Origin: Candidatus Tectimicrobiota bacterium
GTDB taxonomy: Bacteria; JACPSX01
Assembly: GCA_016193065.1 (NCBI GenBank)
Contig: JACPSX010000246.1
Location: 11,675-34,719, forward strand
DNA: 23,045 nt
Direction: 5' to 3'
Below are positions 445-21,014 of the stretch, piece after piece. The translations under genes and the position numbers were made by a program. The notes beneath the pieces are model-generated. The model worked only from the letters and a program-made list of their open reading frames with translations, did not search any database and was not told the DNA's origin. Every line of letters begins with the position of its first letter. Position 1 is the first letter of the stretch.

Positions 445-1647
445 CTAGCTCACGGGCATGAACTCTTTACCGAGAAGCTCCTTGCCGATGATGATCCGCA
501 TGATGTTCAGAGCCCCCTCGGCACCCGCCAGATAAGAGAGGATGCCGTTGAGCCCCATCCCCAGTTCCACATCGGTGTTATAGCCGGCACCCCCGTACCA
601 CATCATGACATGCTTAAAAATGTCGAAGGCCACTTGCGGGGCCATGAGCTTGCTGATCCCCATCTGGAGGTTCAGCTCCGAGATGGTGGCATCTCCCCCT
701 CTCTGGATTTCATCGTAGAGCCAGGCGGCCTTCAGGACGGCGGTGCGCACCATCTCCAGCATGGCGTAATCGTTGGCCAGCTCGAACTGGATCCCTTCGA
801 ACCGGGCGATGGGTTGGCCGAAGGCCTCCCGGGTCTTGATGTAGTCCATGCCCAGTTCCAGAGCCCGCTCGGCCGCTCCGATGCAGGCCGAGGCGACGAG
901 GGTCCGGGCCAGGGAAAATCCGTCCATGGCGTAGTTGTAGCCGCGGTTTTCCTCCCCCATGAGATAGTAGGCGGGAACCTCCACGTTCTCGTAGGTCATG
1001 CCCCCCGTGGAAAAGCCTTTCCGCCCGAGGTGGTTGTAGTGCGTGTACTTCATCCCCGGGCAATTGTAGGGGACGTACACGAAGCTGAAGCCCTTGGTCC
1101 CTTTCGAAAGGTCGGTTCGCAGTAGGGTCATATGACCGCCCCGTCCGATCTGCTCACACTCCCTGTGCCCGCTGTAGAAGGCCTTTTCCCCGTTAATGAT
1201 GAACTTGTCCCCCTTGCGGACGGCCGTGGTCTTCAGGTTGGCGAGATCGGAACCTCCGCCGGGTTCGGTGGTGGCGATGCCGAGGAAATTGTCCCCCTTG
1301 GCGATGGCCGGGAGCAGCTCCTTCTTGGCCTCCTCGCTGCCGTACTTGTTGATCACGACGCTCCAGCCCGCCTCCAGGAGGTAGTAGACGGGGACGGCCA
1401 TGCTCACGTCGCCGCGGGCCACTTCCATGGCGCCCACAGCGGCCAGAACCGCGTCGCCACCCGGGCCCCCGTAGGTTTCCGGAATGGTCACTCCCAGAAG
1501 TCCCAACTCTGCCATCCCTTTGAGCAGGCTCAGGGGAATCTGTTCGTTGCGGTCGATGTCCTTGGCAAGCGGACGGATGTTCTTCTCGCTAAATTCCCGA
1601 GCCATATTCCGAAACAAGATCTGCTCATCCGTAAGACGAAAATTCAT
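445..1647 (-). CDS. Acyl-CoA dehydrogenase (possibly alicyclic acyl-CoA specific)
   Basis: The 400-residue length is standard for a single-domain FAD acyl-CoA dehydrogenase. The N-terminal helical domain is followed by TTEPGGGSD at about 126-133, the flavin/substrate signature, and the C-terminal domain ends AEGALNIMRIII. Glu377 there aligns with the usual catalytic base (YEGT in other members). It would oxidise an acyl-CoA at C2-C3 and pass electrons to ETF. The ATG at 1647 has GGGAGG nine bases upstream and lies 31 bp after the Oah-like gene. The context of aromatic ring reduction and hydrolysis suggests pimeloyl-, cyclohexanecarbonyl- or a similar CoA ester as substrate; the sequence alone does not decide this. 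The fixC gene after it supplies a plausible electron outlet. Confidence 0.85.
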   Translation of the reverse strand: MNFRLTDEQILFRNMAREFSEKNIRPLAKDIDRNEQIPLSLLKGMAELGLLGVTIPETYGGPGGDAVLAAVGAMEVARGDVSMAVPVYYLLEAGWSVVINKYGSEEAKKELLPAIAKGDNFLGIATTEPGGGSDLANLKTTAVRKGDKFIINGEKAFYSGHRECEQIGRGGHMTLLRTDLSKGTKGFSFVYVPYNCPGMKYTHYNHLGRKGFSTGGMTYENVEVPAYYLMGEENRGYNYAMDGFSLARTLVASACIGAAERALELGMDYIKTREAFGQPIARFEGIQFELANDYAMLEMVRTAVLKAAWLYDEIQRGGDATISELNLQMGISKLMAPQVAFDIFKHVMMWYGGAGYNTDVELGMGLNGILSYLAGAEGALNIMRIIIGKELLGKEFMPVS

Positions 1648-1678
1648 CAGGGAATCCTCCCGCCTTGAATTATCCCGG

Positions 1679-2638
1679 TCACTGTTTCAGCGAGGCCCCG
1701 CAGGATCCGCAGAACCGGAAGGTCTCGGGAATGCCCTTCGCCTGGCAGGACGGACAGGTTTGAGTATAAGGGCCCCAGAGAAATTCGCTGGATCCCCCCG
1801 TCGCCGCCCGCTTCCGGAGACCGATAAAATCCACCGGACGCTTTTCCACGAAGGCTCTCATCCCCTCGTACGGTTCGATGGAGCTGTAGTGCAAGGTCAA
1901 CCAGTCCCGGGCATGGCCGACGGTGGCCGCCCAGGAGAGTTTTTTCCAGAAGTTCACTTGCTCCTTCGTGTAACGGGTACACTCGGGGAATTTGTTGATC
2001 AACTTTTCACAGAGGGCCGCCACGGCGCCGTCGAGCTCCTTGTAGGGGACCACTTGATTCACAAGACCCCACTCGAGAGCCTGCCGGGCTTCCACCCATT
2101 CGTTGACGAAACACATCTCCCGGGCTCGCCGATCCCCGATGAGGACCGGCAGCCACTGGGTGGCGCCGCCTGCTGGAACACTCCCGACGCTGGGGCCGAT
2201 CTGGCGAATCCGGGCATGCTCGGCGGCGATGGAGAGGTCGCAGGCCAGATGCAACTCGTTGCCGCCCCCGACGACCATGCCGTTAATGCGGGCGATGGCG
2301 GGCTTGCCCAGATCCAGGAGAAGAGTGATGACCCGATCGAAATAGGTAAACCACTTCCAGTAGTTTCTCGGCCGGCGCAACATGGTGGTGGCGTATTCAT
2401 TCACGTCGCCCCCGGTGCAAAAAGCCTTTTCTCCCGCCGCCGTCAGAACCAAAACGGCAATGGAGTCATCCCAGGACACGTCCAGGAGAGCCTGAGCCAT
2501 TTCCTCCAGAACTTCGGTGTTCATGGCATTAAACACCTGCGGGCGGTTCACGGTAATGGTGGCCACCCAGTCCTTCTTCGTGTAGAGAATGCTGTTGAAG
2601 TGGAAGCCCTCGGCGGGCTTCGGCGAAAAATAAGCCAT
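1679..2638 (-). CDS. Oah/BamA-like 6-oxocyclohex-1-ene-1-carbonyl-CoA hydrolase homologue with C-terminal zinc ribbon
   Basis: A 319-residue crotonase-fold protein. The ATG at 2638 is preferred over a longer frame because GAAGGAGGGGG sits directly upstream. Stretches such as KAFCTGGDVNEY, RINGMVVGGGNELHLACD, GSVPAGGATQWLP, INKFPECTRYTKEQ and the C-terminal VDFIGLRKRA resemble the ring-opening hydrolases of anaerobic benzoate degradation (Oah, BamA, BzdY), which add water and cleave the C-C bond of 6-oxocyclohexene-carbonyl-CoA. Two things are odd. From memory of the family, a segment of several tens of residues between the catalytic core and the FPEC motif is missing. The C-terminus also carries CPSC and CGSC (Cys295, 298, 310, 313), a zinc-ribbon pattern I do not know from this family. 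A BadI/MenB-like ring hydrolase is an alternative. It begins 16 bp after the hemerythrin gene. Confidence 0.7.
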   Translation of the reverse strand: MAYFSPKPAEGFHFNSILYTKKDWVATITVNRPQVFNAMNTEVLEEMAQALLDVSWDDSIAVLVLTAAGEKAFCTGGDVNEYATTMLRRPRNYWKWFTYFDRVITLLLDLGKPAIARINGMVVGGGNELHLACDLSIAAEHARIRQIGPSVGSVPAGGATQWLPVLIGDRRAREMCFVNEWVEARQALEWGLVNQVVPYKELDGAVAALCEKLINKFPECTRYTKEQVNFWKKLSWAATVGHARDWLTLHYSSIEPYEGMRAFVEKRPVDFIGLRKRAATGGSSEFLWGPYTQTCPSCQAKGIPETFRFCGSCGASLKQ

Positions 2639-2654
2639 TCCCCCTCCTTCGTTA

Positions 2655-3152
2655 TTATTGAGCTGGAATTTGTTTATCCACCATCCTTCGGTGGAGGATC
2701 TGTTGACCGAGCGGGAAAAATATGTGGTCCTCACTGCGGATATGACTGGTCAAAGTGGAGGTCAATGCGCTCAGGAGCTCGCTCAAACGGCCGAAATAGG
2801 GCCAGAACTGGTCCTCCACGACCCCGAGGGACAAGGCGAGTACCTTCCGGATATCCTGCAGGATCCGCCGGATCTGCTGGTGTTCAGCCAGGACAAAGCG
2901 CGTGGGACTCTCTGCGGCCCCCAAGCCCCAGTCGACGACGGGGAAAAAGTTGGTCTCCTCGCCGGACATGTGGTCTTCCAGGTCCCGGGAAAAACAGCGC
3001 AGGCCCCGGTTTAAACTCTGCCATTCGTTTTCCCGGGGTGCGTCACCCGCCAGGCCGAGTCGAACCAGCTTGGAGCGCAACTCTTCCAATGTATCCAGCA
3101 ACCCGATATGTTCCGGGCAAAGCCCCGCTTTTCCAGTGCGAACCTCCGCCAT
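2655..3152 (-). CDS. Hemerythrin-like HHE domain protein
   Basis: A 165-residue all-helical protein. The ATG at 3152 has GGAGGGG five bases upstream and is preferred over a TTG seven codons earlier. The di-iron ligand pattern is visible in order: PEH near the N-terminus, LEDHMSGEETNFFP in the middle, LAEHQQI next, and SHIRSEDHIFFP near the C-terminus. This matches the helix-paired His/Glu motifs of hemerythrin (HHE) proteins, which bind a non-haem di-iron centre and sense, store or scavenge O2 or NO in the cytoplasm. It lies inside the benzoyl-CoA reductase transcription unit, so protecting oxygen-labile Fe-S enzymes is a reasonable inference. Repair of Fe-S centres, as by YtfE/Ric proteins, is another possibility. 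Confidence 0.8.
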   Translation of the reverse strand: MAEVRTGKAGLCPEHIGLLDTLEELRSKLVRLGLAGDAPRENEWQSLNRGLRCFSRDLEDHMSGEETNFFPVVDWGLGAAESPTRFVLAEHQQIRRILQDIRKVLALSLGVVEDQFWPYFGRLSELLSALTSTLTSHIRSEDHIFFPLGQQILHRRMVDKQIPAQ

Positions 3153-3179
3153 GGCTTCCCCTCCTCCCCCCAATCCTCC

Positions 3180-3422
3180 TCACCCTGCGCCCGCATCCTG
3201 GGGCCTGGTGTATATGATCTTGTACCGGCCGGGTTCCATCAGGTAGCAATCGAGACACTCATAGCCTTCCTCGGGTTCAAAAGGCTCCAGGCGCACTTCA
3301 AATCCCAAGGACTCGTAAAGCTCCACAAGTTCGCTCAAACGAGGCTCGCAGACAGTGGTCCGGCGCTCCCAACCTTCCGCTTTCAGGACCGCGCTCTTCC
3401 CTCTTCGTTCCTGCTCCGCCAC
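3180..3422 (-). CDS. Small protein of unknown function, Cys-x-x-Cys containing
   Basis: I do not recognise this family. The likely GTG start at 3422 follows a GGGGGAG and lies ten bases after the acetyltransferase stop, giving 80 residues; a longer frame would overlap the acetyltransferase and lacks a binding site. Visible features are RTTVCEPRLSELVELYESLG (about 21-40), with a likely helix, then a strand, acidic EPFEPEEG, ECLDC with Cys56 and Cys59, and a C-terminal RYKIIYTRP strand. Cys25 could join the pair as a metal or disulfide site. The gene is tightly packed between the acetyltransferase and hemerythrin genes, so it is probably co-expressed with the benzoyl-CoA pathway. The reading frame looks real from its protein-like composition and operon spacing. 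Confidence 0.6.
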   Translation of the reverse strand: MAEQERRGKSAVLKAEGWERRTTVCEPRLSELVELYESLGFEVRLEPFEPEEGYECLDCYLMEPGRYKIIYTRPQDAGAG

Positions 3423-3432
3423 AGCTCCCCCG

Positions 3433-3900
3433 TTACAGTTTGCGCTCCAAATGAATCGTCTTGCTTTGGGAAAGAGAGAAACCACCGCTGCTGAAGAACT
3501 TCAACAGATCCCAATCATTCCAATACACCCGGGTATTGATCACCTCAACGCCGGCTTTTCGCGCCACGGTCAGGAACTCCTCCATCAGGGACTGGCCAAT
3601 GCCGTTTCGCCGGTACTTGGGATCAACTCCGATTGTATCGATGGTGGCCACAGTGTCCGGGATGCCGAACTCGCCGCGGTAAATCTCCCCCATGATGAAC
3701 CCGACGACCTTCCCCTCGACCTCCGCCACCAGGGAAGTGACCAGGTGACGCCGATCATCCAGGGCCAGATCGACCTTTTGCTCATAATAGTCGGGCCTTT
3801 TCTTGCCGAAAGCCTGGGCATCTATGGCCACAATCGCGTCAAAATCCCTTCTTTGGATCAGTCGAATCCGAATCTGTTCCTGCGCGAGCTTGGCTGTCAT
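3433..3900 (-). CDS. GNAT family N-acetyltransferase
   Basis: A 155-residue protein with a good GGAGG six bases before its ATG. The GNAT fold is recognisable from VVGFIMGEI (strand beta-4), IDTIGVDPKYRRNGIGQSLMEEF (about 87-109) with the acetyl-CoA pyrophosphate loop RRNGIG at 97-102, and a C-terminal GGFSLSQSKTIHLERKL. It would transfer an acetyl group from acetyl-CoA to an amine or to a lysine or N-terminus of a protein. It follows bzdV after 27 bp, inside the benzoyl-CoA cluster. In Rhodopseudomonas palustris, Gcn5-type acetyltransferases (Pat, KatA) acetylate and silence benzoate-CoA ligase, so a comparable role is conceivable but rests only on context. The substrate cannot be read from the sequence. 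Confidence 0.8.
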   Translation of the reverse strand: MTAKLAQEQIRIRLIQRRDFDAIVAIDAQAFGKKRPDYYEQKVDLALDDRRHLVTSLVAEVEGKVVGFIMGEIYRGEFGIPDTVATIDTIGVDPKYRRNGIGQSLMEEFLTVARKAGVEVINTRVYWNDWDLLKFFSSGGFSLSQSKTIHLERKL

Positions 3901-3927
3901 GGCATTCCTCCCCGCCCCTCCTCTCCC

Positions 3928-6363
3928 CTAGAAAAGATCGTCCAGGTCCGAGGCTCCTCCGCCCGGCATCTCCCCATGCTGCTGGAGGTATTGCTGCAAG
4001 AGTTCGCTCTCCCTCTGAGTGTACATGGGTTCTTCTTCGAAAGTAAAGTAGCGGGCCGGGGAATTTTCCTGGAGCTTTTCGGTCAAACTTTGACGAAGAT
4101 TTGGCGTTCCGGAGATCGCCAGAACGTTTTTTTCCTCATCCAGCAATTCGAACACTCCCTCCACCTCCGGTACCAGAGCCACCTGTTCCGCCGTGAACTC
4201 CAGCCAGCGGGCGGGCGGATGCGGCAGCGGGGCCAAATCCAGGCGCAGATCGCAGCGCAGGCAGCGGCTGGCCTCCGCCATGGCGGCCTTCTCGTCCAGA
4301 CCCAGTTCGACGAGCGGGAAGCCGGTCAGGCGCTCGGCGAGGCTCAAAGTGGGCATTTCGGCCCGCACACGTGCTAAAAAGTCCTCTTCTCTGCCCAGGA
4401 AGGAATTTGTGTCTTCGGAATCCACTAGAGATTCGTCAATATTGCCATCGCCTCCCAAAGAACGATCAATCACCGAGGCAGCCGTCCTCCCCATGGCAAT
4501 GGCTTCAATCACCGAGGCGGGCCCGCTCACCGCATCTCCTCCGGCAAACACCCTTTCCCGGTTGGTCTTCAGGGTATCCCGATGGACCTCCAGAATATCC
4601 CCCTTACCCAAAGAGACCTGGAAATGATCGGGAATTTCAGGCCGCTGGCCGATGGCAGCAATGACCGCGTCAAACTCCCGGGTATACTCGCTGCCGGCCA
4701 GAGGTACGGGCCTGCGCCTGCCGCTTTCATCGGGCTCGCCCAGCTCCATCCGCACGAACTCCACCCGGAGGTTCCCGTTGGTAGACAGGACCGATACGGG
4801 CGCGGTCAGGAACTCCAAAGTGATTCCCTCGTGGATTGCTTCTTCCACTTCATGGGGAAAAGCCGGCATCTCAGTGCGGGAGCGCCGGTAAATCAAGGTC
4901 ACTTCCCGGGTTCCCAGACGCCGGGCGGCGCGGGCTGCATCGATGGCCACGTTTCCGCCCCCGATGACTGCCACCTTTTGGCCCACAGAGACCTTTTCTC
5001 CAAGATTCACCCGGCGCAGAAATCTCACCCCATCCATAACCTTAGGCGAATCCTGTCCGCTCACCCCGAGCTTGCTCCCCTGATGAGCCCCAACGGCAAG
5101 AAACAGAGCATCAAATCCCTCGGCAAACAAGGCATCCAGATCTTCCACCCGGCAGCCGCTTTGAATTTTCACCCCCGCATCCACGATTTCTTGGATCTCC
5201 TTGTCCAGAACCTGACGTGGGAGCCGGTACTCGGGAATTCCCGTGCGCAGCATGCCCCCCGGCTCCGGGTAGGCCTCAAACACAGTCACATCGTGCCCTT
5301 TGCGGACCAGGTAGTAAGCTGTCGTCAGGCCTGCAGGCCCCGAGCCGATGACCCCCACCTTCTTGCCGGTGGCGGGAGCGAAGTTTGCCTTTTCCTTCCA
5401 CAACCCCGTATCCCGGGAAGCCGCAAAACGCTTGAGGGAACAGATGGAAATAGGCTCATCAATTTTCCCCCGCCGGCACACAGGCTCACAGGGGTGATAA
5501 CAGACATAACCCAGAACCTCGGGAAACGGGACCTTTTCCCGGATCACAGCCACCGCATCGGGGAACTTCCCTTCGGCGATCAGGCGCACATAGCGGGGAA
5601 CATCGATCCCTGCCGGGCAGGCTTCCCGGCAAGGAACCAGGGAGGTCTCCACCTTGCCGGGAACCTCGGCCACTTTGTCCAGCAAAGAGCCACTGGGACA
5701 AACCTCCACGCAGGATCCGCAAAACTTGCAGCCGGAAGCCTCCAGCGTGTCCGCAATGGGCCCCATATAGATGTGGCCATTTTCCTCCCGGGTTCCCAGG
5801 GCGCCGACGCCCCTTACATCGCGGCAAACCCGGACGCAGCGATCACAGGCAATGCACAGGTTGAAGTCGAGGTTGTAGAAGGGCTCGTCATGAACTACGG
5901 GAAGCCCCCGGTGGACATAGCGGGGGGTGTCGTTCTTGATCCCCACATAGTCCGAGGCCCGCCGGATCTCACAATCGTTAAAGATCGAACAGCAGCGTTC
6001 CTCAACGGGAATTCCGTACGAGCAGGTAGTGCGGCTGCACCCCTCCCTCTGTGGACAGGTCAGGCAGACGTGGGGATGGTTGGCGAGGATCTTGGCCAGG
6101 TTGTCCTGCCGGGCCGCGGCAATGGCCGGAGATTCCGTCCTTACCACCATCCCGGCCTGGACCTTCACATCGCAGGCCCGCACGAGTCCCGCCTCTCCTT
6201 CCACCTCCACCAAGCAGAGCTGGCATGATCCTTCCGGCGACAGGTCCGGATGGGCGCAGAGGCTGGGGATGTACTTCCCTTCCTTCCATGCCAGCTGCAG
6301 CAGAGAGAGACCCGCAGGGGCTGTGACTTGTTCTTGATCCAGGCTCAAGGTGACCGTTTCCAC
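3928..6363 (-). CDS. bzdV: BzdV-like NAD(P)H:ferredoxin oxidoreductase, multi-domain Fe-S flavoprotein
   Basis: An 811-residue protein from the GTG at 6363 (GGAGG six bases upstream). Residues 1-75 are a [2Fe-2S] domain (Cys36, 47, 50, 64). A NuoG-like Cys-rich segment follows (Cys100, 103, 109, 114), then two [4Fe-4S] motifs (Cys170/173/176/180 and 212/215/218/222). Residues about 243-705 resemble the glutamate synthase small subunit (GltD): CREACPAGIDVPRY, FAD loop GVIGSGPAG (337-345), NAD(P) loop VIGGGNVAID (466-475), and GGDAVSGPASVIEAIAMGR. Such proteins move electrons between NAD(P)H and ferredoxin. A BzdV of this kind follows bzdM in Azoarcus benzoate clusters, though with other genes between. 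The last 90 residues are an additional domain with a GIY-YIG-like pattern, ending DDLF. It feeds or balances reduced ferredoxin for the benzoyl-CoA reductase. Confidence 0.85.
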   Translation of the reverse strand: METVTLSLDQEQVTAPAGLSLLQLAWKEGKYIPSLCAHPDLSPEGSCQLCLVEVEGEAGLVRACDVKVQAGMVVRTESPAIAAARQDNLAKILANHPHVCLTCPQREGCSRTTCSYGIPVEERCCSIFNDCEIRRASDYVGIKNDTPRYVHRGLPVVHDEPFYNLDFNLCIACDRCVRVCRDVRGVGALGTREENGHIYMGPIADTLEASGCKFCGSCVEVCPSGSLLDKVAEVPGKVETSLVPCREACPAGIDVPRYVRLIAEGKFPDAVAVIREKVPFPEVLGYVCYHPCEPVCRRGKIDEPISICSLKRFAASRDTGLWKEKANFAPATGKKVGVIGSGPAGLTTAYYLVRKGHDVTVFEAYPEPGGMLRTGIPEYRLPRQVLDKEIQEIVDAGVKIQSGCRVEDLDALFAEGFDALFLAVGAHQGSKLGVSGQDSPKVMDGVRFLRRVNLGEKVSVGQKVAVIGGGNVAIDAARAARRLGTREVTLIYRRSRTEMPAFPHEVEEAIHEGITLEFLTAPVSVLSTNGNLRVEFVRMELGEPDESGRRRPVPLAGSEYTREFDAVIAAIGQRPEIPDHFQVSLGKGDILEVHRDTLKTNRERVFAGGDAVSGPASVIEAIAMGRTAASVIDRSLGGDGNIDESLVDSEDTNSFLGREEDFLARVRAEMPTLSLAERLTGFPLVELGLDEKAAMAEASRCLRCDLRLDLAPLPHPPARWLEFTAEQVALVPEVEGVFELLDEEKNVLAISGTPNLRQSLTEKLQENSPARYFTFEEEPMYTQRESELLQQYLQQHGEMPGGGASDLDDLF

Positions 6364-6373
6364 AGCGAGCCTC

Positions 6374-6655
6374 CTACCAGGAATGAGTAATGGCGCCCGG
6401 AGTGCACGCGGCCATGCAAGGGAGTACCCCACGCCCCGTAGTCGGCTTGCAGGCAGCACAGAGGTACTTCAAAGTATTGCGGACGTCCCGACGGACCGCC
6501 GACACGTTGTCGTCGTAATCGTCCGTGATCATCTCGTAGATATGCTCGGGGCATCCATCAATGCAGCCGTGATGAGGGCAGCTCGTGCACTTATCCGTGT
6601 CGATCGTTACGAAGTACTCCCCGGAGCCGTCTTTGTAACCGTAGTTCGCAAGCAT
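6374..6655 (-). CDS. bzdM: BzdM-type 2[4Fe-4S] ferredoxin
   Basis: A 93-residue cytoplasmic ferredoxin. The ATG at 6655 is chosen over a TTG two codons earlier, since GGGGG lies about six bases upstream of it. The first cluster motif is Cys23-x2-Cys26-x4-Cys31-x3-Cys35 and the second is Cys66-x2-Cys69-x10-Cys80-x3-Cys84. The pattern (CTSCPHHGCIDGCP, then CAACKPTTGRGVLPCMAAC) is unlike a simple clostridial ferredoxin, with a 30-residue spacer between clusters. In the Azoarcus bzd cluster a ferredoxin gene occupies the same position after bzdQ and is the low-potential electron donor to benzoyl-CoA reductase; the same role is inferred here. The stop lies inside the ribosome binding region of bzdV, suggesting coupled translation. 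Confidence 0.88.
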   Translation of the reverse strand: MLANYGYKDGSGEYFVTIDTDKCTSCPHHGCIDGCPEHIYEMITDDYDDNVSAVRRDVRNTLKYLCAACKPTTGRGVLPCMAACTPGAITHSW

Positions 6656-6672
6656 TCTCAACCCCCAAGGTT

Positions 6673-7551
6673 TTAGGCTACTTTGCCAGCCGCTTTTTCT
6701 TTCTGGAGCAAGGCTTGTCCAAACAGCGCCGCCCCCAGGGCTCCGGCAAGCTGGCTGTCGTACTTGCTCTGGACGGCGCTTATGCCGATGACCTGTTCCA
6801 GACGCTTGACGACTCCGGCGTTCTTCGCAATGCCTCCTGTGATGAAGAATTCCTTCTCCACCCCGATGCGCTCCAGGAGCTCCGAAACTCGCTTTGCCAT
6901 AGCTAGGCAGTAAGCGGCCAGCACCTTGCTCTTGGTCCAGCCATCTTTGAGAAGTCCCATGGCCTCGGACTTGGCAAACACCACGCAGGTACTGCTGACC
7001 GGCTCAGGCTCCTCGGGAACGTTAAACGAAAGCTCCCCGACTTGCTCAATCGGGACGGCCAACAGGTCCGCAATGACCTCCATACCCCGTCCCGTGCCGG
7101 CTGCGCATTTATCGTTCATGAGGAAGTTGGTCACTTTCCCCTTCTCGTCGCAATGGATCGCCTTGCAATCCTGCCCTCCCATATCCAGGATCGTGCGCAC
7201 GCTGTTGCCGGCCATAAAGTTCGCCCCCCGGGCATGACAGGCAATTTCCGTAATTGCCTTGTTGGCGAAGGGAACGTTCACGCGCCCGTAGCCAGTGCCG
7301 ACGACGTATTGGATATTCTCCTGCTTCATCCCCGTGTCCTGCAAGGCCCATTCGAGCGCCTTGCGGGCGCTGTCCGGGCTGTTGGAGCCGGTGCGCATGC
7401 TGGAGTAAGCGTAGAGCTCCCCATCGGTCGCGATGACCGCCTGCGAGCTCACGGAACCGACGTCAATGCCCGCCGTGATCATCTTGGCAGTTTTCCAATC
7501 CTTGTCTGGATCTTTCCAGTTGTATTCTTTCCATCTCCAGAATTCAGCCAC
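6673..7551 (-). CDS. bzdQ: Benzoyl-CoA reductase, ATPase subunit BzdQ
   Basis: A 292-residue member of the BadF/BadG/BcrA/BcrD ATPase family (ASKHA fold). The GTG start at 7551 is backed by GGAGG six bases upstream. Phosphate-binding GIDVGS lies at 28-33, GTGYGR at 85-90, DMGGQDCK at 123-130, and the adenosine motif GGIAKN near 240. The cluster cysteines are Cys149 (NDKCAAGTGRG) and Cys189 (STCVVFAKSE), which with BzdP hold a bridging [4Fe-4S] cluster. The N-terminal extension, rich in Trp and Lys (FWRWKEYNWKDPDKDW), is characteristic of the BzdQ branch. It hydrolyses ATP to drive electrons onto the aromatic ring through BzdN and BzdO. It follows bzdP by 17 bp. Confidence 0.93.
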   Translation of the reverse strand: MAEFWRWKEYNWKDPDKDWKTAKMITAGIDVGSVSSQAVIATDGELYAYSSMRTGSNSPDSARKALEWALQDTGMKQENIQYVVGTGYGRVNVPFANKAITEIACHARGANFMAGNSVRTILDMGGQDCKAIHCDEKGKVTNFLMNDKCAAGTGRGMEVIADLLAVPIEQVGELSFNVPEEPEPVSSTCVVFAKSEAMGLLKDGWTKSKVLAAYCLAMAKRVSELLERIGVEKEFFITGGIAKNAGVVKRLEQVIGISAVQSKYDSQLAGALGAALFGQALLQKEKAAGKVA

Positions 7552-7568: not shown

Positions 7569-8345
7569 CTAGTTTCCAGCCGCGCCGGCAACGACGGCAG
7601 CCCCCAGAGCTCCCACGTATTCAGGATCCTGCGGGACCACGACATTCTCGATCCCCAGCGTCCGCTTGATGGAATCCAAGAACCCTATGTTGTAGGCCAC
7701 TCCGCCCACCAAAATCACATCCTGCTCCAAGCCGACCCTGCGCACCATGGCGGAAATTCGGCTGGCGATCGCGTCATGCACTGCCCGGGCAATGTCCTCC
7801 TTGGAGGTGTTTGAGTGAATCAGGGACACCACTTCGGATTCGGCGAAGACGGTGCATTGGGCGTTCATGGGAATTGACTTGTTTGATTTCAGGGAAATAT
7901 CCCCGAACTGGGCCAGAGTCACTTCCAGCGCCCGCGCCATGGACTCCGTGAAAGCTCCCGCCCCGGCGGCGCATTTCTCGTTGACCGCGAAGTCAACGAC
8001 CTTGCCGTCGGCGTTGGTTTTGATTCCGCGCCCCTCTTCGGCACCTACATCGATGACCGTGCGGGCAGACGGATGGAGGAAGACAGCTCCCTGTGCATCC
8101 GCGCTCACTTCCGTGACCACGGTCTGGGCAAACGCCACGGCTTTGCGGCCCGCTCCGGTCGCCCCCACCTTGCCCACGGCGCTACGCTCGATCCCGGCCT
8201 TGGCGAGCGCTTCTTTATAAGCCTCCTCGACAGACTGCTCCGTCTCAAAACCGGCCAGCACACTGGTTTTGGCCAAGATCTTGCCACCGTCAAGAAGCAC
8301 CACCTTGATTGTTTTGGCTCCCACATCGATTCCGGCTGTGATCAT
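7569..8345 (-). CDS. bzdP: Benzoyl-CoA reductase, ATPase subunit BzdP
   Basis: A 258-residue ASKHA ATPase of the BcrA/BcrD type, partner of BzdQ. The ATG at 8345 has a GGAGG six bases upstream. GIDVGAKT at 5-12 and GATGAGR at 61-67 form the phosphate loops; Cys125 (NEKCAAGAGAF) and Cys164 (NAQCTVFAESE) are the expected ligands of the shared [4Fe-4S] cluster; GGVAYN near 214 is the adenosine motif. The second phosphate motif reads DVGAEEGRG instead of the DMGGQD of BzdQ, a divergence between the two ATPase subunits that may mean the two sites are not equivalent. Gene order N-O-P-Q supports the assignment. Confidence 0.92.
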   Translation of the reverse strand: MITAGIDVGAKTIKVVLLDGGKILAKTSVLAGFETEQSVEEAYKEALAKAGIERSAVGKVGATGAGRKAVAFAQTVVTEVSADAQGAVFLHPSARTVIDVGAEEGRGIKTNADGKVVDFAVNEKCAAGAGAFTESMARALEVTLAQFGDISLKSNKSIPMNAQCTVFAESEVVSLIHSNTSKEDIARAVHDAIASRISAMVRRVGLEQDVILVGGVAYNIGFLDSIKRTLGIENVVVPQDPEYVGALGAAVVAGAAGN

Positions 8346-8357
8346 GACGTTCCTCCC

Positions 8358-9668
8358 TTAATTCTCGAGCTTGTTAAAGCCCAGGCTTTCCATAAAGGAG
8401 TCGATGCGGCTTAGAGTTCGTGGGTAATCCATTTCCTTCTCGTCGCCCATGTTCCCTTCATAGGTCATCACAGGCACCCCCGCTTTGACGAGCCCAAGCC
8501 GGTTTTCCATAATTCCCTTGCTCAAGCCCTCGCAACCTCGATTCAGGTGCAGGATCACTCCGTTCAGCTTAAACTCCTTGACCATCCTGAGCATTATGTC
8601 GGTCTTGATTTGGGGGTCGTAAAAGTGTTGCCACTCCGGCTTGGAGAGGTTCCAGTCGGCGTAGATCCGCAAGGCTTCTTCCCGGGTGCGAATCTTGATC
8701 CCGAGCTGCTCCGGTGTAGGCCGGGGGCCCCAGGAGCCGTCCGGCTGATCCGCGAAGACCCCTTCCAGTGCGAACGTGTACAGCGAACCCACGGAGACGG
8801 CCCCGTATTTCTCCATATAGCGGTACATGGAGAGATAGCTCCACGGCGGCTGAGTGTCCGTGATCAGGCGGCAGCGCTCGGTAGACACCGCGGCAATGCC
8901 GCGCGCAATGCGGTCCTTCACCTCATCCCTCAGCTCTTCGTAGAAGTCCCCGAACTCTTTGGAATGTTTCGACAGGGTGGCCAGAACGTAGAGAGCATAC
9001 ATCGTTTTCTCTTCCAGAGGAGCCGGGACTGCCTTGTTGAGCGTGCAAACCTCGGCCCACAGAGAGGTCGTGCGGCACTCATTGTTGACGGCGGCGATAA
9101 ACTTCTCGTCATCAAATTTGCGTCCTGTCACCTTCTCCAACCAGGGGATGGACTCCTGCATCTGGTTCACGACATAGGCGATCCTGCCTTCATCCACGTC
9201 CTTGTACAGCCCCACGCTCACGTCGATGGTGAAATAGGGGATCTGCTTGTATTCGGCCACATGCTGGTACCACTTGTGGTGGCTGCAGCATATCTGGGTC
9301 TGAAATGCAAAGTCGGGCTTGGGGAACTCACCGCCGAAGGCGTATTTGTTGACATACATGGAGCCCCAGTAGGTTCTCATGTAGGAGCATAGATCCCGCG
9401 ACCAACCTTTGGCATCGGCCGCGCTCTGACATTCCGCATTGAGCTTTGGATCGAAGGCCACGGAAGCAGCGTAGGGCTCGCTGGTCAGGGTGTAGACGTC
9501 GTCGCCGAGCCCGGCGGGAATCGCGTCCATTGCCCAGGCCCCGCCGCTCCAGCGGATGCCGCCGCGCTGTTTACACTCCGCATAGTCCTTGTAATACTTC
9601 AGGCGCAGCTCCTTGGCCTTATTCCAGCACTTCAAAGGTTCGGTGGGATATTTCGTTAACGTCGCCAT
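8358..9668 (-). CDS. bzdO: Benzoyl-CoA reductase, subunit BzdO
   Basis: A 436-residue protein of the HgdB/BcrB family. The ATG at 9668 follows GGGGAG and is preferred over a TTG six codons earlier. Conserved cysteines typical of the cluster-binding ring-reduction module are visible: Cys94 (RDLCSYMR), Cys127/128 ([11 protein letters not shown]) and Cys379 (LNRGCEG). With BzdN it forms the active-site half of the enzyme, which reduces benzoyl-CoA to cyclohexa-1,5-diene-1-carbonyl-CoA at the cost of ATP. It lies between bzdN and bzdP with short gaps on both sides and good ribosome binding sites, consistent with stoichiometric expression of the four subunits. Confidence 0.93.
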
Positions 9669-9713
9669 GATTTTCTCCCCATTCAAAAATTCGTTGCCGT
9701 TTCCATTCCACCC

Positions 9714-10844
9714 CTAGAAGAGATCATCCGTTCTCAGCGTCTCCAGGAAAGCTTCAACCCGGATGCGGAATGGCCCCAGAGGGTTCGTGGAGTCGAATTC
9801 CAGCCCCAGTGTCGGGATCCCGTTGTCCTCCAGATACTTCTTGAGGACCGGGTTGTCCCCCTCATGGGGATCGCAGAATTTTTCCTGCATGATGATAGCA
9901 CCCTGAGCTTTATAGTCCTTGGCCAATTGAAGCACGTGGGGAAATCGCTGGCGTTCCGGGTAATCTTTGGTCGGACAAGGAGGCCGCTCTACATACCGAT
10001 CGCTGATCGTTTGCAGACGATCCGGCTGGATCCGCGCCTCGTTCCAAAAGTAGCGGGTGCCGGCACACTGCTCATCAATTACTACGGTGGCTCCCACGGA
10101 TTCCACCATCTTGAAGAACTCCACGTCGTCGTTCTCGCTCCCCACGGCCATCAGGCGGATCCCCGGGTCCCGGTCGACCGTGCGGTCGGCCACTTCCTCG
10201 CTGGCTTCTTCCAGGGCTTTGTTGTGCTCTTCGTAATCGACAAACTGGGCAGTGGTGGCAATGTAGAGAGCTTCCGTCCCCGTCAATTTCGGCGGGTCGG
10301 TTTTCCGGAACTCGTAGATCTTGTGGAGAAGCCGGCGGTTCTTGTTGGTAAGCTCAATCCCCCTGTCCAGATCTGCGTCCGTGATCTTTTTGCCGGCGTA
10401 CTCTTCAAGGGCGGCCTTGAATTTCGCCACCTCCCCCACGTAGTACGACTTCGCCGAGGGGCTCTGGACCATGTTGGGCATCGGCAAGTAGTAAGTGAAC
10501 TCGGTCGGGATGTGGGCCCTCCAGCTATCAAAGGTCTGGCGGTAGTGGATGCAGGAGTGGGCCAGCACGATCCCGTCCAGGTAGTTGAATCTTCCTTTCA
10601 GCCCCTGAGCCAGAGAGTCGCGGCAGAAGGGGCAAAACATTCCGAAGATGTGGGGCTCCGTCACATCCTGGGGCTCATGGCTCCCCAATATGCGGGAGTG
10701 GAGCATTCCCGCCGCGGTTAAAATCTCATCGGGGACGTAGGTGCAAAACGTCCCGATGACCTTGCCCCCGGTCCTCTTTTTCCATTCTCGCGCGTACTCG
10801 TGACGATTGTGGTACCAGTGCTCGAATTTCTCTAGGGCGGCCAT
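9714..10844 (-). CDS. bzdN: Benzoyl-CoA reductase, subunit BzdN
   Basis: A 376-residue protein of the HgdB/BcrC family. The ATG at 10844 lies five bases after GGAGGGG; the adjacent upstream GTG is too close to that site. Typical features are GTFCTYVPDEILTAAG (Cys34), FCPFCRDS (Cys71, Cys74), AHSCIHYRQTF (Cys98), DEQCAGTRYFW (Cys260) and EKFCDPHEGD (Cys324), which surround the active-site [4Fe-4S] cluster and the CoA ester. It is the first gene of the bzd set and follows a 356-bp gap holding a possible operator. Its last residues, RTDDLF, resemble the DLDDLF end of BzdV. The whole-length match to the Azoarcus-type subunit and the gene order separate it from 2-hydroxyacyl-CoA dehydratases. Confidence 0.93.
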   Translation of the reverse strand: MAALEKFEHWYHNRHEYAREWKKRTGGKVIGTFCTYVPDEILTAAGMLHSRILGSHEPQDVTEPHIFGMFCPFCRDSLAQGLKGRFNYLDGIVLAHSCIHYRQTFDSWRAHIPTEFTYYLPMPNMVQSPSAKSYYVGEVAKFKAALEEYAGKKITDADLDRGIELTNKNRRLLHKIYEFRKTDPPKLTGTEALYIATTAQFVDYEEHNKALEEASEEVADRTVDRDPGIRLMAVGSENDDVEFFKMVESVGATVVIDEQCAGTRYFWNEARIQPDRLQTISDRYVERPPCPTKDYPERQRFPHVLQLAKDYKAQGAIIMQEKFCDPHEGDNPVLKKYLEDNGIPTLGLEFDSTNPLGPFRIRVEAFLETLRTDDLF

Positions 10845-10861
10845 CACATCCCCTCCTCTAT

Positions 10862-12057: not shown

Positions 12058-13635
12058 TTATTTCGCCCTGAAGCCCGCCAGCTCCTGGAGGAGGCGCCAG
12101 TTGGAGAGGCGGTCCTCCTGGGCTTTCAAAAGAGTTTCAGAAGGGGTTCCATCCTTTTTAAACTGTTTGGCAAAGCGCCTCTCGGTGCGGGCAAAGGCAA
12201 CAAAGTCGAATATCTCTCCCGTCTTGGGATTCTTATACCAGTCCTCTTTCTGGGCCGGGTTCCCCTGCAAGGAGAGGCGGTCCTGGAGCCGGGGCCCCTT
12301 ACGGGGATCATGGATAAAGATCGGAAAAGCCCGGGAATCGACGGCCATCCGGGCCTGCTCGAAGGACTGGTCGTCGGCCACGCCATGCTCGGGCTGGCAG
12401 GTGGAGTAGACGTTGACCAGAGCCGGGCCCGGATACTCGTTGGCGGTCATTATGGCCCGGTAGAAGTGGTTAATGTGGGCCGGCGTGGTCTGGGCCACAT
12501 ACACGTCCGGGTGCATCATGGCGATGTTCCCCAGCTCCTTGCGGCGCTCCAACTTGCCCATCTGGGCCGAGCCGATCATGGACATTTTGGCATCCTGTCC
12601 CAGGAAGGAACTCGTGGAAGTTTGCCCGCCCGTGTTGGAATAAACCTGGGTGTCGAGAACAATAACGTTCACATTCATCCCGGACATGAAGAGCCGGGAG
12701 AGAGCCTGGAAGCCGATGTCCAGCATGGCTCCGTCCCCACCAATAGCCCAGAGCTTTTTATCCCGGTACCCCATCTGATCCCAGCGGGCCCGAACCCCCA
12801 TGGCCAGCGTGGCCACGTTCTCAAACAGGGAGTTGGACCAGGGGACCAGGAAAGGATTGTAAGGGTACGTCGAGCCGTAAACTGTATTGCATCCTGTGGC
12901 TGCTACCAGTCCCACGCTGTTCGGTCCGTAGACAAACCCGGTGGCGGCGAGCATCATGCGCAGGCCGGTGGCCTCTCCGCACCCCATACAGGATCCCGCC
13001 CCTCCCACAAACAGCAGGGAGCGGTCCGCTAGCATCATGTCAGCCAGGACTTTTTCCTGAATATAACGTTCCGGAGTCGGCGGCAGTGCGCGGAAAAATG
13101 CAAAGGCCCGGCGATATTCGTCCAGGTTTTCCGGAGTCTTCCTGATCATTTCCAGGGCCAGATGGTCTCCGCACACTTCCACGCATTCACCGCACCCCTT
13201 GCACTTCGTCGGATCCACGAAGATCCCGAAATATCCTCCTTCTTCGCCCTTCTTTTCCGGATTCCCGAAGTACTTGGTGGTCTCGGCAAACCGGGACTTC
13301 AGAATCCTCGAATCGACTTCGCTCGGGAGATCCGCGAGCTTTTTCTCCAGCGTGCTTTTGGAAACCACCCGCCCGAGGATCGCCGTATCCGGGCAAGCCA
13401 CGACGCACTCCATGCACCCCACACACTTCTCGGCGATAAGCCGGGGCATTTCCGGGGCAATGTAGCTGAAGTCCCGCAGCGTGCCCGTTCCAGGCGCAAT
13501 GAGGCTGCGGGCAGCGTCCAGGTCCGCGGGCAACTCCTCCTCAGCCGTGCCCGCATTGTAGGTCCCCACGATCCGCTCGTTAAAATCGGCTACATTGATG
13601 AACTCTTCCATCGTGCCGCTCTTTTCTCCGTTCAT
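12058..13635 (-). CDS. porB: Pyruvate:ferredoxin oxidoreductase, fused ferredoxin (delta) and TPP (beta) subunit
   Basis: A 525-residue protein equivalent to the C-terminal half of single-chain NifJ. Residues 70-160 carry two [4Fe-4S] motifs (Cys71/74/77/81 and Cys145/148/151/155; the last Cys is followed by Gly rather than Pro). The TPP domain follows, with cluster ligands Cys216, Cys219, Cys249 and probably Cys413, and the pyrophosphate/Mg motif GGDGAMLDIG (299-308) ending in SNTGGQTS (333-340). It decarboxylates a 2-oxoacid and transfers electrons to ferredoxin. SNTGGQ and the NifJ-like layout favour pyruvate over 2-oxoglutarate. The ATG at 13635 follows GAGGGGG and lies nine bases after the porA stop. 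It probably supplies low-potential electrons to BzdM. Confidence 0.88.
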   Translation of the reverse strand: MNGEKSGTMEEFINVADFNERIVGTYNAGTAEEELPADLDAARSLIAPGTGTLRDFSYIAPEMPRLIAEKCVGCMECVVACPDTAILGRVVSKSTLEKKLADLPSEVDSRILKSRFAETTKYFGNPEKKGEEGGYFGIFVDPTKCKGCGECVEVCGDHLALEMIRKTPENLDEYRRAFAFFRALPPTPERYIQEKVLADMMLADRSLLFVGGAGSCMGCGEATGLRMMLAATGFVYGPNSVGLVAATGCNTVYGSTYPYNPFLVPWSNSLFENVATLAMGVRARWDQMGYRDKKLWAIGGDGAMLDIGFQALSRLFMSGMNVNVIVLDTQVYSNTGGQTSTSSFLGQDAKMSMIGSAQMGKLERRKELGNIAMMHPDVYVAQTTPAHINHFYRAIMTANEYPGPALVNVYSTCQPEHGVADDQSFEQARMAVDSRAFPIFIHDPRKGPRLQDRLSLQGNPAQKEDWYKNPKTGEIFDFVAFARTERRFAKQFKKDGTPSETLLKAQEDRLSNWRLLQELAGFRAK

Positions 13636-13644
13636 AACGCCCCC

Positions 13645-15627
13645 TCAAACTTTTGCAGAAGGGTCCTTGCCCCCGGCGACAACCGGAGCGAGGTGCCCAT
13701 CGATGACTTCTCTGGGAATCTCAAAGACCTCCTCGAAACCCCGGCGGACCGCCTTCAAGTTGTCACGCACGACCTGATCCCCTCTGCGCCCGAAGTACTT
13801 GCGCAGGGACTTCTCCACTCCCCTGAAGAGATCTTCTTCGCTCAGACCCAGACGCTCCCGGAAAGGAGTGAAGCGCAGAAAAATCCCCAGGAGAACGATC
13901 CCCTGCATGCGCTGGATCAGGTCGGGACTGGTAGCCACCTCGCGGGCAATTTGCACGGTATCCAGGACCAGGACCCGGATCTTCTTATTCCGGATATTGC
14001 TCCGAGCGTGCTCGGGAACGTCGGCCCAGACGTCTTCGGGAGTCGTCTTGTCCGTCTGGATAAAGACCATCCCACCGCTGCTGAGACCAGCCAGGGGGTT
14101 GCCCTGCTGAAACGCGTTGACGTCGTTGAGAGGGACAAAGTCCACCTGCTCCAGCTCGCAGTGGGTGCGCACTTTTTCCGGCGCCGCCGTCAGGTAATAG
14201 GTGGTCGGCAACCCCTTTTTCTCCGACCCATACTTGGGGTAAGCCTGAACCTGAAGGCTGAAGAGGTCCTCCACAATTGTGGCAATGACCTTGTTGGTAG
14301 TCACGGAACCGTAGCCCCCCACCGAATGGCCCCGCATGGAAAAAGCTTGCGGCGGCCTCACGTCGGGATCTTTCTGACGAGCAAGAGCCAGAGGGTGCTT
14401 AATCCCCAGGACGAAGAACCGTTTTCCGTTGGGAAGGGTCATGTTCTTCGCGGCGGCAATGAAGTCCCCCGGCCGTACGTCCCGGCTGCCCAGTCCCGCA
14501 GAGCCGGAATAGATGGCTGGAACCCGAGCAACCTGCGGATATCCGGGCGCTCCCTGAACGGCATCGGCAAAAGCCGCCTTGATCTCCGCGGTCAGGGGGT
14601 TGGATTGGGCGAGGGGGATATCCAGACGCTCAACCACCGCGAAAGCTTTCAGGTGGGCCAGAGCCGAGACAATCTGGGCTCCGGGAAAGGGCCGGAAAGC
14701 AGTCACGTGGAGCACTCCCACTTTGATCCCTTCGTTGTCCCGCAGCCAGTCCGCCGTGGCCATGGCCGTTTCCATGTACGTCCCCATTCCCACAATGGCG
14801 TACTCGGCATCTTCCAGGCGGTAGGTCTGGACCATATCGTACCGCCTCCCGCTGAGTCGGTAAAATTCCTCCAAGGCCGCCTGGAGCGCTCCTGGGACCT
14901 TATCGTAGTAATAGCGCTGGGCGATTTTGCCTTTCATGTAGCTATCCTGATTCTGGACCACCCCGCTCATAACCGGGTGCTCGGGATCCATCAGGCAGCG
15001 CAGCTTGTCCGAGGGGGCCCCCACGAACTGCCTCATCATCTCGGGTTCGGGGAGTCGAACGCTTTCAATCGTGTGGGTGGTCAGGAAGCCATCTTGAATG
15101 TTCAGAAAGGGAGTCAAGGAGTCCTCGGCAGCCCGGCGCGCAATGAGGGACAGATCGGCCGCATCCTGGGCATTTTTCGCAAAGAGCATCCCCCAACCCG
15201 CGTCCGCCACGGCCATCACGTCATCGTGGCCGGCGTGGATGTTCAGGGAGTGGGAGGTGAGGGCCCTGGCGCCGATGTGGAAGACGATGGGGAGACGCTT
15301 ACCGGAAATTGTGAAGAGCACCTCTTTCATGAGCACCAGTCCCTGACCCGAGGTAAAGTTCGTTACCCTGCCTCCGGCCAGAGCAAAACCTTCACAGGCA
15401 GAAGCCGAGCTGTGCTCCGATTCCGGCTCCAGAAACACCAGGGTTTCTCCCCACAGGTTCTTTTTGCCGTTGGCGACTTCCTCCTGGAATCCTGTGCCCA
15501 TATTGGTCGAGGGGGTGATGGGGTACGCGCAAGCCCCCTGCGCAATGTGAGACTCCACCCAGACGACGACGCTGGATCCATCGGCCGTGGTGGGGATGCC
15601 GGGATAGGGGAAGGTCTTCTCTATCAT
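13645..15627 (-). CDS. porA: Pyruvate:ferredoxin oxidoreductase, fused alpha and gamma subunit
   Basis: A 660-residue protein matching the N-terminal half of NifJ. The alpha domain has YPITPST (35-41), the KNLWGETLVFLEPESEHSSAS segment and TSGQGLVLM near 92-100. The gamma domain starts about 431 with MRGHSVGGYGSVTTNK and includes YPKYGSEKKGLPTTYYLT. The alpha-then-gamma order is that of NifJ, opposite to the gamma-alpha fusion of KorA-type 2-oxoglutarate enzymes. It binds CoA and the oxoacid and forms the enzyme with PorB. The ATG at 15627 is used; the nearest AGGAG is about 13 bases away, longer than ideal. A 417-bp non-coding region precedes it, so its own promoter probably lies there. Confidence 0.88.
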   Translation of the reverse strand: MIEKTFPYPGIPTTADGSSVVVWVESHIAQGACAYPITPSTNMGTGFQEEVANGKKNLWGETLVFLEPESEHSSASACEGFALAGGRVTNFTSGQGLVLMKEVLFTISGKRLPIVFHIGARALTSHSLNIHAGHDDVMAVADAGWGMLFAKNAQDAADLSLIARRAAEDSLTPFLNIQDGFLTTHTIESVRLPEPEMMRQFVGAPSDKLRCLMDPEHPVMSGVVQNQDSYMKGKIAQRYYYDKVPGALQAALEEFYRLSGRRYDMVQTYRLEDAEYAIVGMGTYMETAMATADWLRDNEGIKVGVLHVTAFRPFPGAQIVSALAHLKAFAVVERLDIPLAQSNPLTAEIKAAFADAVQGAPGYPQVARVPAIYSGSAGLGSRDVRPGDFIAAAKNMTLPNGKRFFVLGIKHPLALARQKDPDVRPPQAFSMRGHSVGGYGSVTTNKVIATIVEDLFSLQVQAYPKYGSEKKGLPTTYYLTAAPEKVRTHCELEQVDFVPLNDVNAFQQGNPLAGLSSGGMVFIQTDKTTPEDVWADVPEHARSNIRNKKIRVLVLDTVQIAREVATSPDLIQRMQGIVLLGIFLRFTPFRERLGLSEEDLFRGVEKSLRKYFGRRGDQVVRDNLKAVRRGFEEVFEIPREVIDGHLAPVVAGGKDPSAKV

Positions 15628-19733: not shown

Positions 19734-21014
19734 TTACGCTCTCCGGGCCTGGGTCATAGCGACCGCCAGCACACCGACCGCTGCCAGTAAAACCAACCCC
19801 GCCAGACGGACCAAGACAGGATTCAGCAACATGAAGCCCAGGGTCAAGGCCGGAATCCCCGCGTTGAACAGAAAAAAGCCGGCCCGCGGCAGGCGCTCAT
19901 CCACCATGGAGTCCATGGCAGGAACGGGCTCCAGGCCCACCTTGTCTCCGTATTTCTTGAGCCAAACCAGATGAGGGAAAATTTTATACAAGTAACCCAC
20001 GATGCTGAGAGAAATCCAGCCCAGGATGACCAGGGCTCCCAAGCCGAAATCAAAGCCCTCGGAGGAAGCCCCCAGCCCCAGCATCCGGAGCACTCCCAGA
20101 AGCGCCGCGACATGGAGGTAGAAAACCGCCGTCAACGCATACTTCATGGGAACTCCGAAGGGACGCAGCCGGGCCCTGCTCATGGCGATCACCTGTTTTC
20201 CATAGGAAAAGACCGCTAGCACGATGAGGAGCGAAGCAGCGCGATTCCAGGCCGGCGGTGAGCCCAGGACCCAATCCCCTAGGAGGAGACCCAGGAGCCC
20301 CATGTTCCCCAGTGAGAAAGCCACTTTCGCAGCCCGCAGGGAATAGCCGTGGGCCAGGGTAAACATGGGGAAGAGCTTGTAGGAAACCCCGATGATCAGC
20401 AGGCTCAACCACCCCCAGAGTCCCAAATAAAGGTGTCCCCTCAAAGTCGCAAGGACCGCTTCACTCAGGAAACCCGTGCGGAAGTTTACGGCCAGGGCCA
20501 GGCCGGAAAGAGCAGTTAGTGTAAACCACAAGAAAGCCGCCAGGATGTGAATCCCGGTCATATCGATCTTCTTCACTCGCGCCAGCGTGAAGGCCACATT
20601 GATCAGGAACAGGACAATCCCAACCGCCACCAGGAGTCCAAAGAACGGGACTCCGTCACCCAGACGCCCGTGCCAGAAACTCCCGGCCAGCCCCAGGACT
20701 CCGATGGTGTAAAACCAGAACTGCCAGCGCCCCAGTAGGTCGCTCCAGAGAGTGACCTCCAGGACCACCGGCACGAGCTGGAACAAGGCGCCCATGGCCA
20801 CCATGGTGGCCCAACCCAACACGGCCAGATGGGCCAAGGCCAAGAAGCGCGGATGCAAAACCCCACTGTCCAATGACGCGGCGGCGATCGGAAGCAGAGC
20901 CATCAGGAGCAGGAAGGAACCCGAGGCCGCCCAGAAATAGCGGAAGGGCAGGTTCAGGCCACCTTCCTTCGCGATTGTCGGAGCCGCGGTGGTTTTCGTC
21001 ATGACGCCGTTCAT
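19734..21014 (-). CDS. Haem-copper oxidase subunit I-like polytopic membrane protein
   Basis: A 426-residue protein with about twelve hydrophobic segments. Its ATG overlaps the upstream stop as ATGA, so translation is probably coupled. Helix pairs resemble the cytochrome-oxidase/NO-reductase subunit I fold: LPFRYFWAASGSFLLLM, then HPRFLALAHLAVLGWATMVAMGALFQLVPVV (His54, His62), later GHLYLGLWGWLSLLIIGVSYKLFPMF, FYLHVAALLGVLRMLG and IVGYLYKIFPHLVWLKKYG. Several histidines could bind haem. I could not find the full three-histidine copper site, so oxygen or NO reduction is not shown. Proteins of this kind in anaerobes are often annotated as cytochrome c oxidase subunit I-like or NnrS-like. The neighbouring DUF2249 and radical SAM genes suggest a haem- or NO-linked role. 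Confidence 0.75.
   Translation of the reverse strand: MNGVMTKTTAAPTIAKEGGLNLPFRYFWAASGSFLLLMALLPIAAASLDSGVLHPRFLALAHLAVLGWATMVAMGALFQLVPVVLEVTLWSDLLGRWQFWFYTIGVLGLAGSFWHGRLGDGVPFFGLLVAVGIVLFLINVAFTLARVKKIDMTGIHILAAFLWFTLTALSGLALAVNFRTGFLSEAVLATLRGHLYLGLWGWLSLLIIGVSYKLFPMFTLAHGYSLRAAKVAFSLGNMGLLGLLLGDWVLGSPPAWNRAASLLIVLAVFSYGKQVIAMSRARLRPFGVPMKYALTAVFYLHVAALLGVLRMLGLGASSEGFDFGLGALVILGWISLSIVGYLYKIFPHLVWLKKYGDKVGLEPVPAMDSMVDERLPRAGFFLFNAGIPALTLGFMLLNPVLVRLAGLVLLAAVGVLAVAMTQARRA

Follow-up and report, generated by a model that had tools for sequence, protein, structure and literature searches.

The 23,045-nucleotide stretch of DNA analysed here (the window), positions 11,675 to 34,719 of contig JACPSX010000246.1 from a Candidatus Tectimicrobiota bacterium, carries on its minus strand a gene for a crotonase with a C-terminal four-cysteine ribbon. 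We propose that it represents an uncharacterised branch, ribbon-Oah, which probably opens the ring in a class I (Bzd-type) cluster for benzoyl-CoA degradation, in place of the canonical 6-oxocyclohexene-carbonyl-CoA hydrolase, Oah. Within the Oah/BadI/MenB group the protein belongs to a new branch, whose most likely role is anaerobic ring opening instead of canonical Oah. The gene sits in a same-strand cluster with bzdNOPQ, encoding a class I benzoyl-CoA reductase (BCR), the bzd genes being upstream. A preliminary description of the window had singled out an odd Oah-like gene; the gene is real and lies on the minus strand, but it is not single, being one of two copies on the contig and a member of a large family.

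The window protein and its C-terminal ribbon

The features of the gene are as follows.

1679–2638, minus strand: ribbon-Oah, putative ring hydratase/hydrolase with crotonase fold and C-terminal zinc ribbon, 319 residues (open reading frame, PF00378, tree, AlphaFold2 model)
1700–1756, minus strand: predicted zinc-ribbon knuckles C295, C298, C310 and C313 (motif in 85/85 intact family proteins, invariant alignment columns)
2036–2047, minus strand: internal-insert site, residues 198–201 (4 residues between P198 and D203 versus 53–62 in Oah, by alignment)
2195–2197, minus strand: Gly148, crotonase Glu164 equivalent (Gly in 85/85, and also in Oah, BadI and MenB)
2255–2257, minus strand: Glu128, crotonase Glu144 equivalent (85/85 ribbon proteins, 19/19 Oah, 0/9 BadI/BadI-like/MenB)

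The reading frame runs from an ATG at 2638, with a strong ribosome-binding site (AAGGAGGGGG) directly 5' of it, to a stop codon ending at 1679, and its 319 codons encode a crotonase with Oah-like motifs. Each of the motifs named in the preliminary description is present: GGNEL at residues 125–129, GGATQWLP at 157–164, FPEC at 217–220 and VDF-LRKR at 269–277. Alignment with 19 canonical Oahs confirmed that the protein is shorter than Oah and lacks an internal segment, as had been claimed; two Oah segments are missing, an N-terminal insert of ~ 12 residues and the internal one of ~ 50. Pfam finds ECH_1 (PF00378) at 187 bits. The best NCBIfam matches are a MenB-type model (182 bits), the Oah model TIGR03200 (180 bits) and BadI (178 bits), none of which comes near its cut-off. 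The profile comparison that had been suggested, with the models for Oah (TIGR03200, 180.4 bits versus a cut-off of 464.45), BadI (TIGR03210, 177.8 versus 467.6) and MenB (TIGR01929, 174.3 versus 342.7), gave membership in none of the three. Since all the NCBIfam scores are under cut-off, no curated model names the protein beyond its ECH_1 domain, and these scores together with the active-site residues rule out membership in TIGR03200 or BadI.

The tail of the protein reads C295-x2-C298-x11-C310-x2-C313, in agreement with the CPSC-x11-CGSC ending reported earlier, and provides the two C-x2-C knuckles of a PF12773/PF13240-type zinc ribbon. A survey of homologues found the motif in 85 of the 86 family proteins read, the 86th (L061) having an interrupted reading frame, and all four cysteines are invariant in the 85 intact relatives. 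The ribbon is therefore real and conserved; its presence in 85/85 proteins across many phyla rules out chance or an assembly artefact. Pfam zinc-ribbon models match only below threshold (DZR, 21.5 bits versus a gathering score of 27.3). In the AlphaFold2 model, the ribbon end (residues 281–319) has block scores of ~ 88–96 in the predicted local distance difference test (pLDDT).

Relationship to Oah, BadI and MenB

A maximum likelihood tree was calculated from 72 rows, with the ordinary hydratases taken as outgroup and the alignment restricted to columns in which 60% or more of the rows have a residue. The ribbon proteins fall with Oah, BadI and MenB, apart from the ordinary hydratases, with support of 100/99; they are thus not placed inside an ordinary enoyl-CoA hydratase clade, the outcome that the preliminary description had named as telling against it. 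Within the group, the ribbon proteins (96/75) and Oah (100/100) form a common branch (98/90) with BadI/MenB outside it. The approximately unbiased (AU) test, however, does not reject a grouping of the ribbon proteins with BadI/MenB (p = 0.354), and the mean identity of the ribbon proteins is 41% to BadI and BadI-like proteins and 34% to Oah. The tree by itself is therefore not decisive.

As the AU test weakens a firm claim that the branch is sister to Oah, we bring in two further features. An insert of 33–34 residues is present in 8 of the 85 ribbon proteins, exactly at the site of the 53–62-residue insert of Oah, and the nine residues at its start and the eight at its end fit those of the Oah insert better than 2000 of 2000 shuffles. 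Mapped on the tree, the insert changes state four times among the ribbon proteins, for which repeated loss of an ancestral insert would be the simpler reading. The other feature is the catalytic glutamate common to both families, Glu128. Insert remnant and glutamate together speak for the Oah side, with the reservation that Glu128 could be a retained ancestral state because ordinary hydratases have Glu there too.

Active-site residues and predicted fold

General knowledge of the family, together with the alignment, is the basis on which we equate residues with Glu144 and Glu164 of rat crotonase and assign catalytic roles to residues in Oah, BadI and MenB. The two glutamates of an ordinary enoyl-CoA hydratase do not both occur in the ribbon proteins: Glu128 is there and Gly148 replaces Glu164 in 85/85. 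An ordinary hydratase identity is ruled out by the tree and these residues. Ser153 is as in Oah, BadI and MenB, and His242, His250 and Glu255 are invariant in the ribbon family. From the Oah loop GGQE...KHGSAPDGGSTDF, the window protein retains the Glu and has not kept the Gln, the His or either Asp.

The AlphaFold2 model of the window protein has a pLDDT of 91.5 and a predicted template modelling score of 0.89. VIA-align gives Z ~ 31 to several crotonases, MenB among them, and ordinary hydratases equal MenB; such equal scores identify a crotonase fold and nothing narrower. Foldseek ranked Escherichia coli MenB first. No Oah structure was among the Foldseek and VIA-align matches listed, and the ribbon is hardly tested by either.

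Distribution and gene context

The family was sampled as the best 80 loci of 546 candidate stretches from a profile scan. These comprise 70 bacterial and 10 archaeal records from 19 named phyla, so that the branch is widespread and no peculiarity of the source genome. Cultured carriers include Heliophilum, Paradesulfitobacterium and Acididesulfobacillus. The branch occurs with class I BCR and without canonical Oah in Chloroflexota, Acidobacteriota, Gemmatimonadota, Bacillota, Asgard archaea, Thermoplasmatota and others. Among the 38 loci of at least 15 kb, neighbour clustering and tblastn found class I BCR subunits in 33 (10 Bzd-type, 23 Bcr-type), a Had-like gene in 22 and a Dch-like gene in 18. 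For the Had-like gene of the relatives, TIGR03201 is the best NCBIfam match, and for the Dch-like gene TIGR03189 is within the top three models, both below cut-off. A dehydrogenase of the short-chain dehydrogenase/reductase (SDR) type is present in many of the family loci. The ribbon genes of L084, L092, L105 and L113 are orphans amid housekeeping genes.

Canonical Oah above the TIGR03200 cut-off was found in none of the 33 ribbon genomes with BCR loci, where the top matches are partial (140–186 bits); it was found in 19 of 386 other genomes, at 507–611 bits. The relatives themselves score 141–207 bits against the same model, versus 507–611 bits for canonical Oahs. It is this context of BCR, Had-like and Dch-like genes, with canonical Oah in 0/33 genomes, from which we infer that the ribbon family most likely replaces Oah. 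The new Oah-like branch of the preliminary description thus finds support both in the best tree, as sister to Oah, and in its surroundings.

Proposed function and alternatives

We propose an Oah-like working for the protein while not placing it as a TIGR03200 member. BzdNOPQ would reduce the ring of an aryl-CoA, after which a hydratase and a dehydrogenase would yield oxo-cyclohexene- (or cyclohexane-) carboxyl-CoA. Ribbon-Oah would bind this CoA thioester in its crotonase fold, which is predicted with high confidence, the conjugated double bond would be hydrated with the help of Glu128, and the enzyme would then hydrolyse the C–C bond linking the ring ketone to the alpha carbon; the product would be of the hydroxypimelyl-CoA type and would pass on to beta-oxidation. 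The four-cysteine tail most likely binds zinc and might either dock a partner or stiffen the region past the C-terminal helices. Oah carries out both the 1,2-addition of water and the hydrolysis of the ketone (PMC5742626), and the retained Glu128 fits its water-addition step. We also consider, as less likely, that the family may be a second catalytic solution to ring opening, in which the hydratase Glu is retained, the His/Asp of Oah and the Asp of BadI/MenB are both missing, other invariant residues (e.g. His242, His250 and the conserved Glu255) take part and the ribbon docks to the reductase or dehydrogenase of the pathway.

Besides the AU result and the low TIGR03200 score, a number of observations weigh against replacement of Oah by this family. 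The Oah His (KHGS) and two Asp (PDGG, TDF) are absent from 85/85 ribbon proteins, and the Asp of BadI/MenB at position 155 is likewise found in 0/85. In the source genome, which is 86% complete, the top match to Dch (TIGR03189) is 70 bits versus ~ 174–175 in relatives, and that to Had (TIGR03201) 99 bits versus 235–273. The genome of a member of the Tectomicrobia from which the nearest relative comes (G047; L041) has both canonical Oah and a ribbon copy. G007 and G075 are complete genomes with ribbon members in which BzdN and BcrC both go unmatched; in a search for BcrC only, no match was found in the Melainabacteria/Cyanobacteria genomes of the four orphan genes. A ribbon-less homologue (G155:C2:59277-60110; L176, L183) lies near PaaG-, PaaF- and aldehyde-dehydrogenase-like genes and is perhaps an oxepin-CoA-type ring opener, an aerobic side branch. 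From this homologue and the members without detected BCR it follows that the family is not bound to BCR alone, and an exclusive tie is ruled out by the latter. Finally, Acididesulfobacillus acetoxydans, a cultured carrier of the cluster, did not grow on benzoate (PMC8982180), and the substrate may therefore be another aryl-CoA.

It is unlikely that the enzyme is of the BadI type, hydrolysing saturated 2-oxocyclohexanecarboxyl-CoA as in the Rhodopseudomonas-type branch and not 6-oxocyclohexene-carbonyl-CoA. The higher identity to BadI and the grouping that the AU test leaves standing agree with such a reaction, as do the SDR dehydrogenases of many loci, which have the fold class of BadH, the resemblance of the neighbouring acyl-CoA dehydrogenase (ACAD) to cyclohexanecarboxyl-CoA dehydrogenase, and the fact that neither Dch nor Had was seen in the incomplete source genome; but the absence of Asp155 and presence of Glu128 in 85/85 proteins is the reverse of BadI, TIGR03210 is matched at 178 bits versus 467.6, and Dch-like and Had-like neighbours recur in the relatives' loci. 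The crotonase fold, the equal VIA-align scores of ordinary hydratases and the orphan members in genomes without detected BCR are what a general beta-oxidation enoyl-CoA hydratase acting downstream of ring opening would also display. The Gly in place of crotonase Glu164 in 85/85 and the 100/99 separation from the ordinary hydratases make this highly improbable.

A different question is whether the cluster handles benzoyl-CoA at all. The Bzd enzyme could act on a larger or substituted ring (e.g. reduced naphthoyl-CoA or a hydroxylated intermediate), with the paralogues dividing the substrates between them. Two copies, 64% identical, are present on one contig in different sub-branches, the second of them near an amidohydrolase and another ACAD, with a class III CoA-transferase at a greater distance, and the failure of A. 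acetoxydans to grow on benzoate points the same way. The contig also resembles in outline the thn operon of naphthalene degraders, which has a Bzd-like reductase, the crotonase ThnL, the amidohydrolase ThnN, ACADs and a CoA-transferase and lies in genomes that yielded no oah homologue (PMC12016498); ThnL hydrolyses 2-oxocyclohexanecarboxyl-CoA (PMC12016498). The likeness is one of gene content. BzdN, BzdO and BzdQ are, however, well above the benzoyl-CoA reductase equivalog cut-offs, and the proteins scanned included no recognisable AtuA-like lyase, so that we regard a larger ring as improbable.

Comparison with known systems

The ribbon family has in common with Oah the crotonase family, Glu128, the QxG..GS loop, GG[AS]Tx[FW]LP, FPxC, DF-LR and the BCR context. 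It differs in that the N-terminal insert of Oah is missing from the ribbon protein, the internal insert is absent or, in 8/85, shortened to a homologous remnant, the Oah His and two Asp are replaced by V, A/C and Q, and the four-cysteine ribbon is found in none of the 19 canonical Oahs. BadI is similar in the length of its catalytic domain and in the QVG..VGS loop, but has Asp at 155, Val at 128 and no ribbon. MenB (1,4-dihydroxy-2-naphthoyl-CoA synthase) ranks first among solved structures both by sequence (4els) and by Foldseek (4elx), but has Asp at 155, no Glu128 and no ribbon, and serves another pathway. A zinc ribbon has also been tied to acyl-CoA metabolism in the DUF35 (PF01796) zinc-ribbon/OB-fold proteins (PMC2954200); these, however, are separate two-domain proteins with an OB fold, and their ribbon is not the tail of a crotonase.

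In the open literature, where most subscription journals are missing, we found no earlier account of the ribbon branch and no text joining a zinc ribbon and a crotonase; the sole text joining a zinc ribbon with benzoyl-CoA reductase concerns ketone degradation. The branch is apparently undescribed so far. Ring opening by Oah/BamA is a diagnostic step of anaerobic aromatic degradation, with bamA PCR as its marker (PMC3794298). The bamA primers quoted there each have at least 4 mismatches to 85/85 ribbon genes and in none are both within 4, whilst both are within 4 mismatches in 17 of 19 canonical Oahs. The curated models tested and the bamA primers therefore miss the ribbon branch. If the proposed function is correct, many subsurface lineages have more potential for anaerobic degradation of aromatics than is now called. 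For organisms in which BCR is present and no oah is recognised, the branch supplies a candidate that can be tested.

The bzd cluster and the second copy

The other features of the window, and those around the second copy in contig coordinates, are listed below.

445–1647, minus strand: ACAD, acryloyl-CoA reductase/cyclohexanecarboxyl-CoA dehydrogenase-like, next downstream of ribbon-Oah (below equivalog cut-offs)
2655–3173, minus strand: hemerythrin HHE protein, directly upstream of ribbon-Oah (PF01814)
3180–3485: 101-residue open reading frame in the bzd cluster, no Pfam match
3928–6459, minus strand: fused NuoG-like/GltD-like oxidoreductase, 843 residues (NCBIfam and Pfam)
6374–6661, minus strand: ferredoxin-like protein of the bzd cluster (weak RnfB-type match)
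6673–7551, minus strand: BzdQ (TIGR03192, 498 bits, above cut-off)
7569–8345, minus strand: BzdP-type activase subunit (TIGR00241, 223 bits, above cut-off)
8358–9686, minus strand: BzdO (TIGR03191, 700 bits, above cut-off)
9714–10847, minus strand: BzdN (TIGR03190, 554 bits, above cut-off)
12058–15627, minus strand: 2-oxoacid:ferredoxin oxidoreductase, two genes (NCBIfam and Pfam)
Contig about 5470–6423: second ribbon-Oah copy, 64% identity to the window copy
Contig 6488–7354: amidohydrolase (PF04909) adjoining the second copy

Genes of ~ 95 residues like that of the ferredoxin-like protein come after BzdQ in other loci, and the cluster of NuoG/GltD-like fusions is present in 7 loci and recurs with bzd genes. 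The fusion is perhaps an NAD(P)H:ferredoxin route for electrons to BCR, for which the 2-oxoacid:ferredoxin oxidoreductase is a plausible electron source. A putative acetyltransferase was seen by eye among the upstream genes of the cluster.

The second copy, ~ 8 kb away and outside the window, has its own ribbon and in the tree groups with Asgard archaeal members, apart from the window copy. Electron transfer flavoprotein (ETF) genes were seen near it by eye. In Peptococcaceae (L042, L045–L047), the cluster of its adjoining amidohydrolase is again found close to ribbon and bzd genes, in a setting that resembles that of ThnN/BamU. Genes for a molybdopterin oxidoreductase, a ferredoxin-like protein and an NrfD membrane subunit also lie near the second copy, at contig 1099–5084. 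Just before the start of the window, a run of N at contig ~ 11600–11700, an assembly gap, breaks a FixC/ETF-QO-like open reading frame. Within the window, at 19734–21850, a protein with DUF1858 and DUF2249 adjoins a COX1-like membrane protein.
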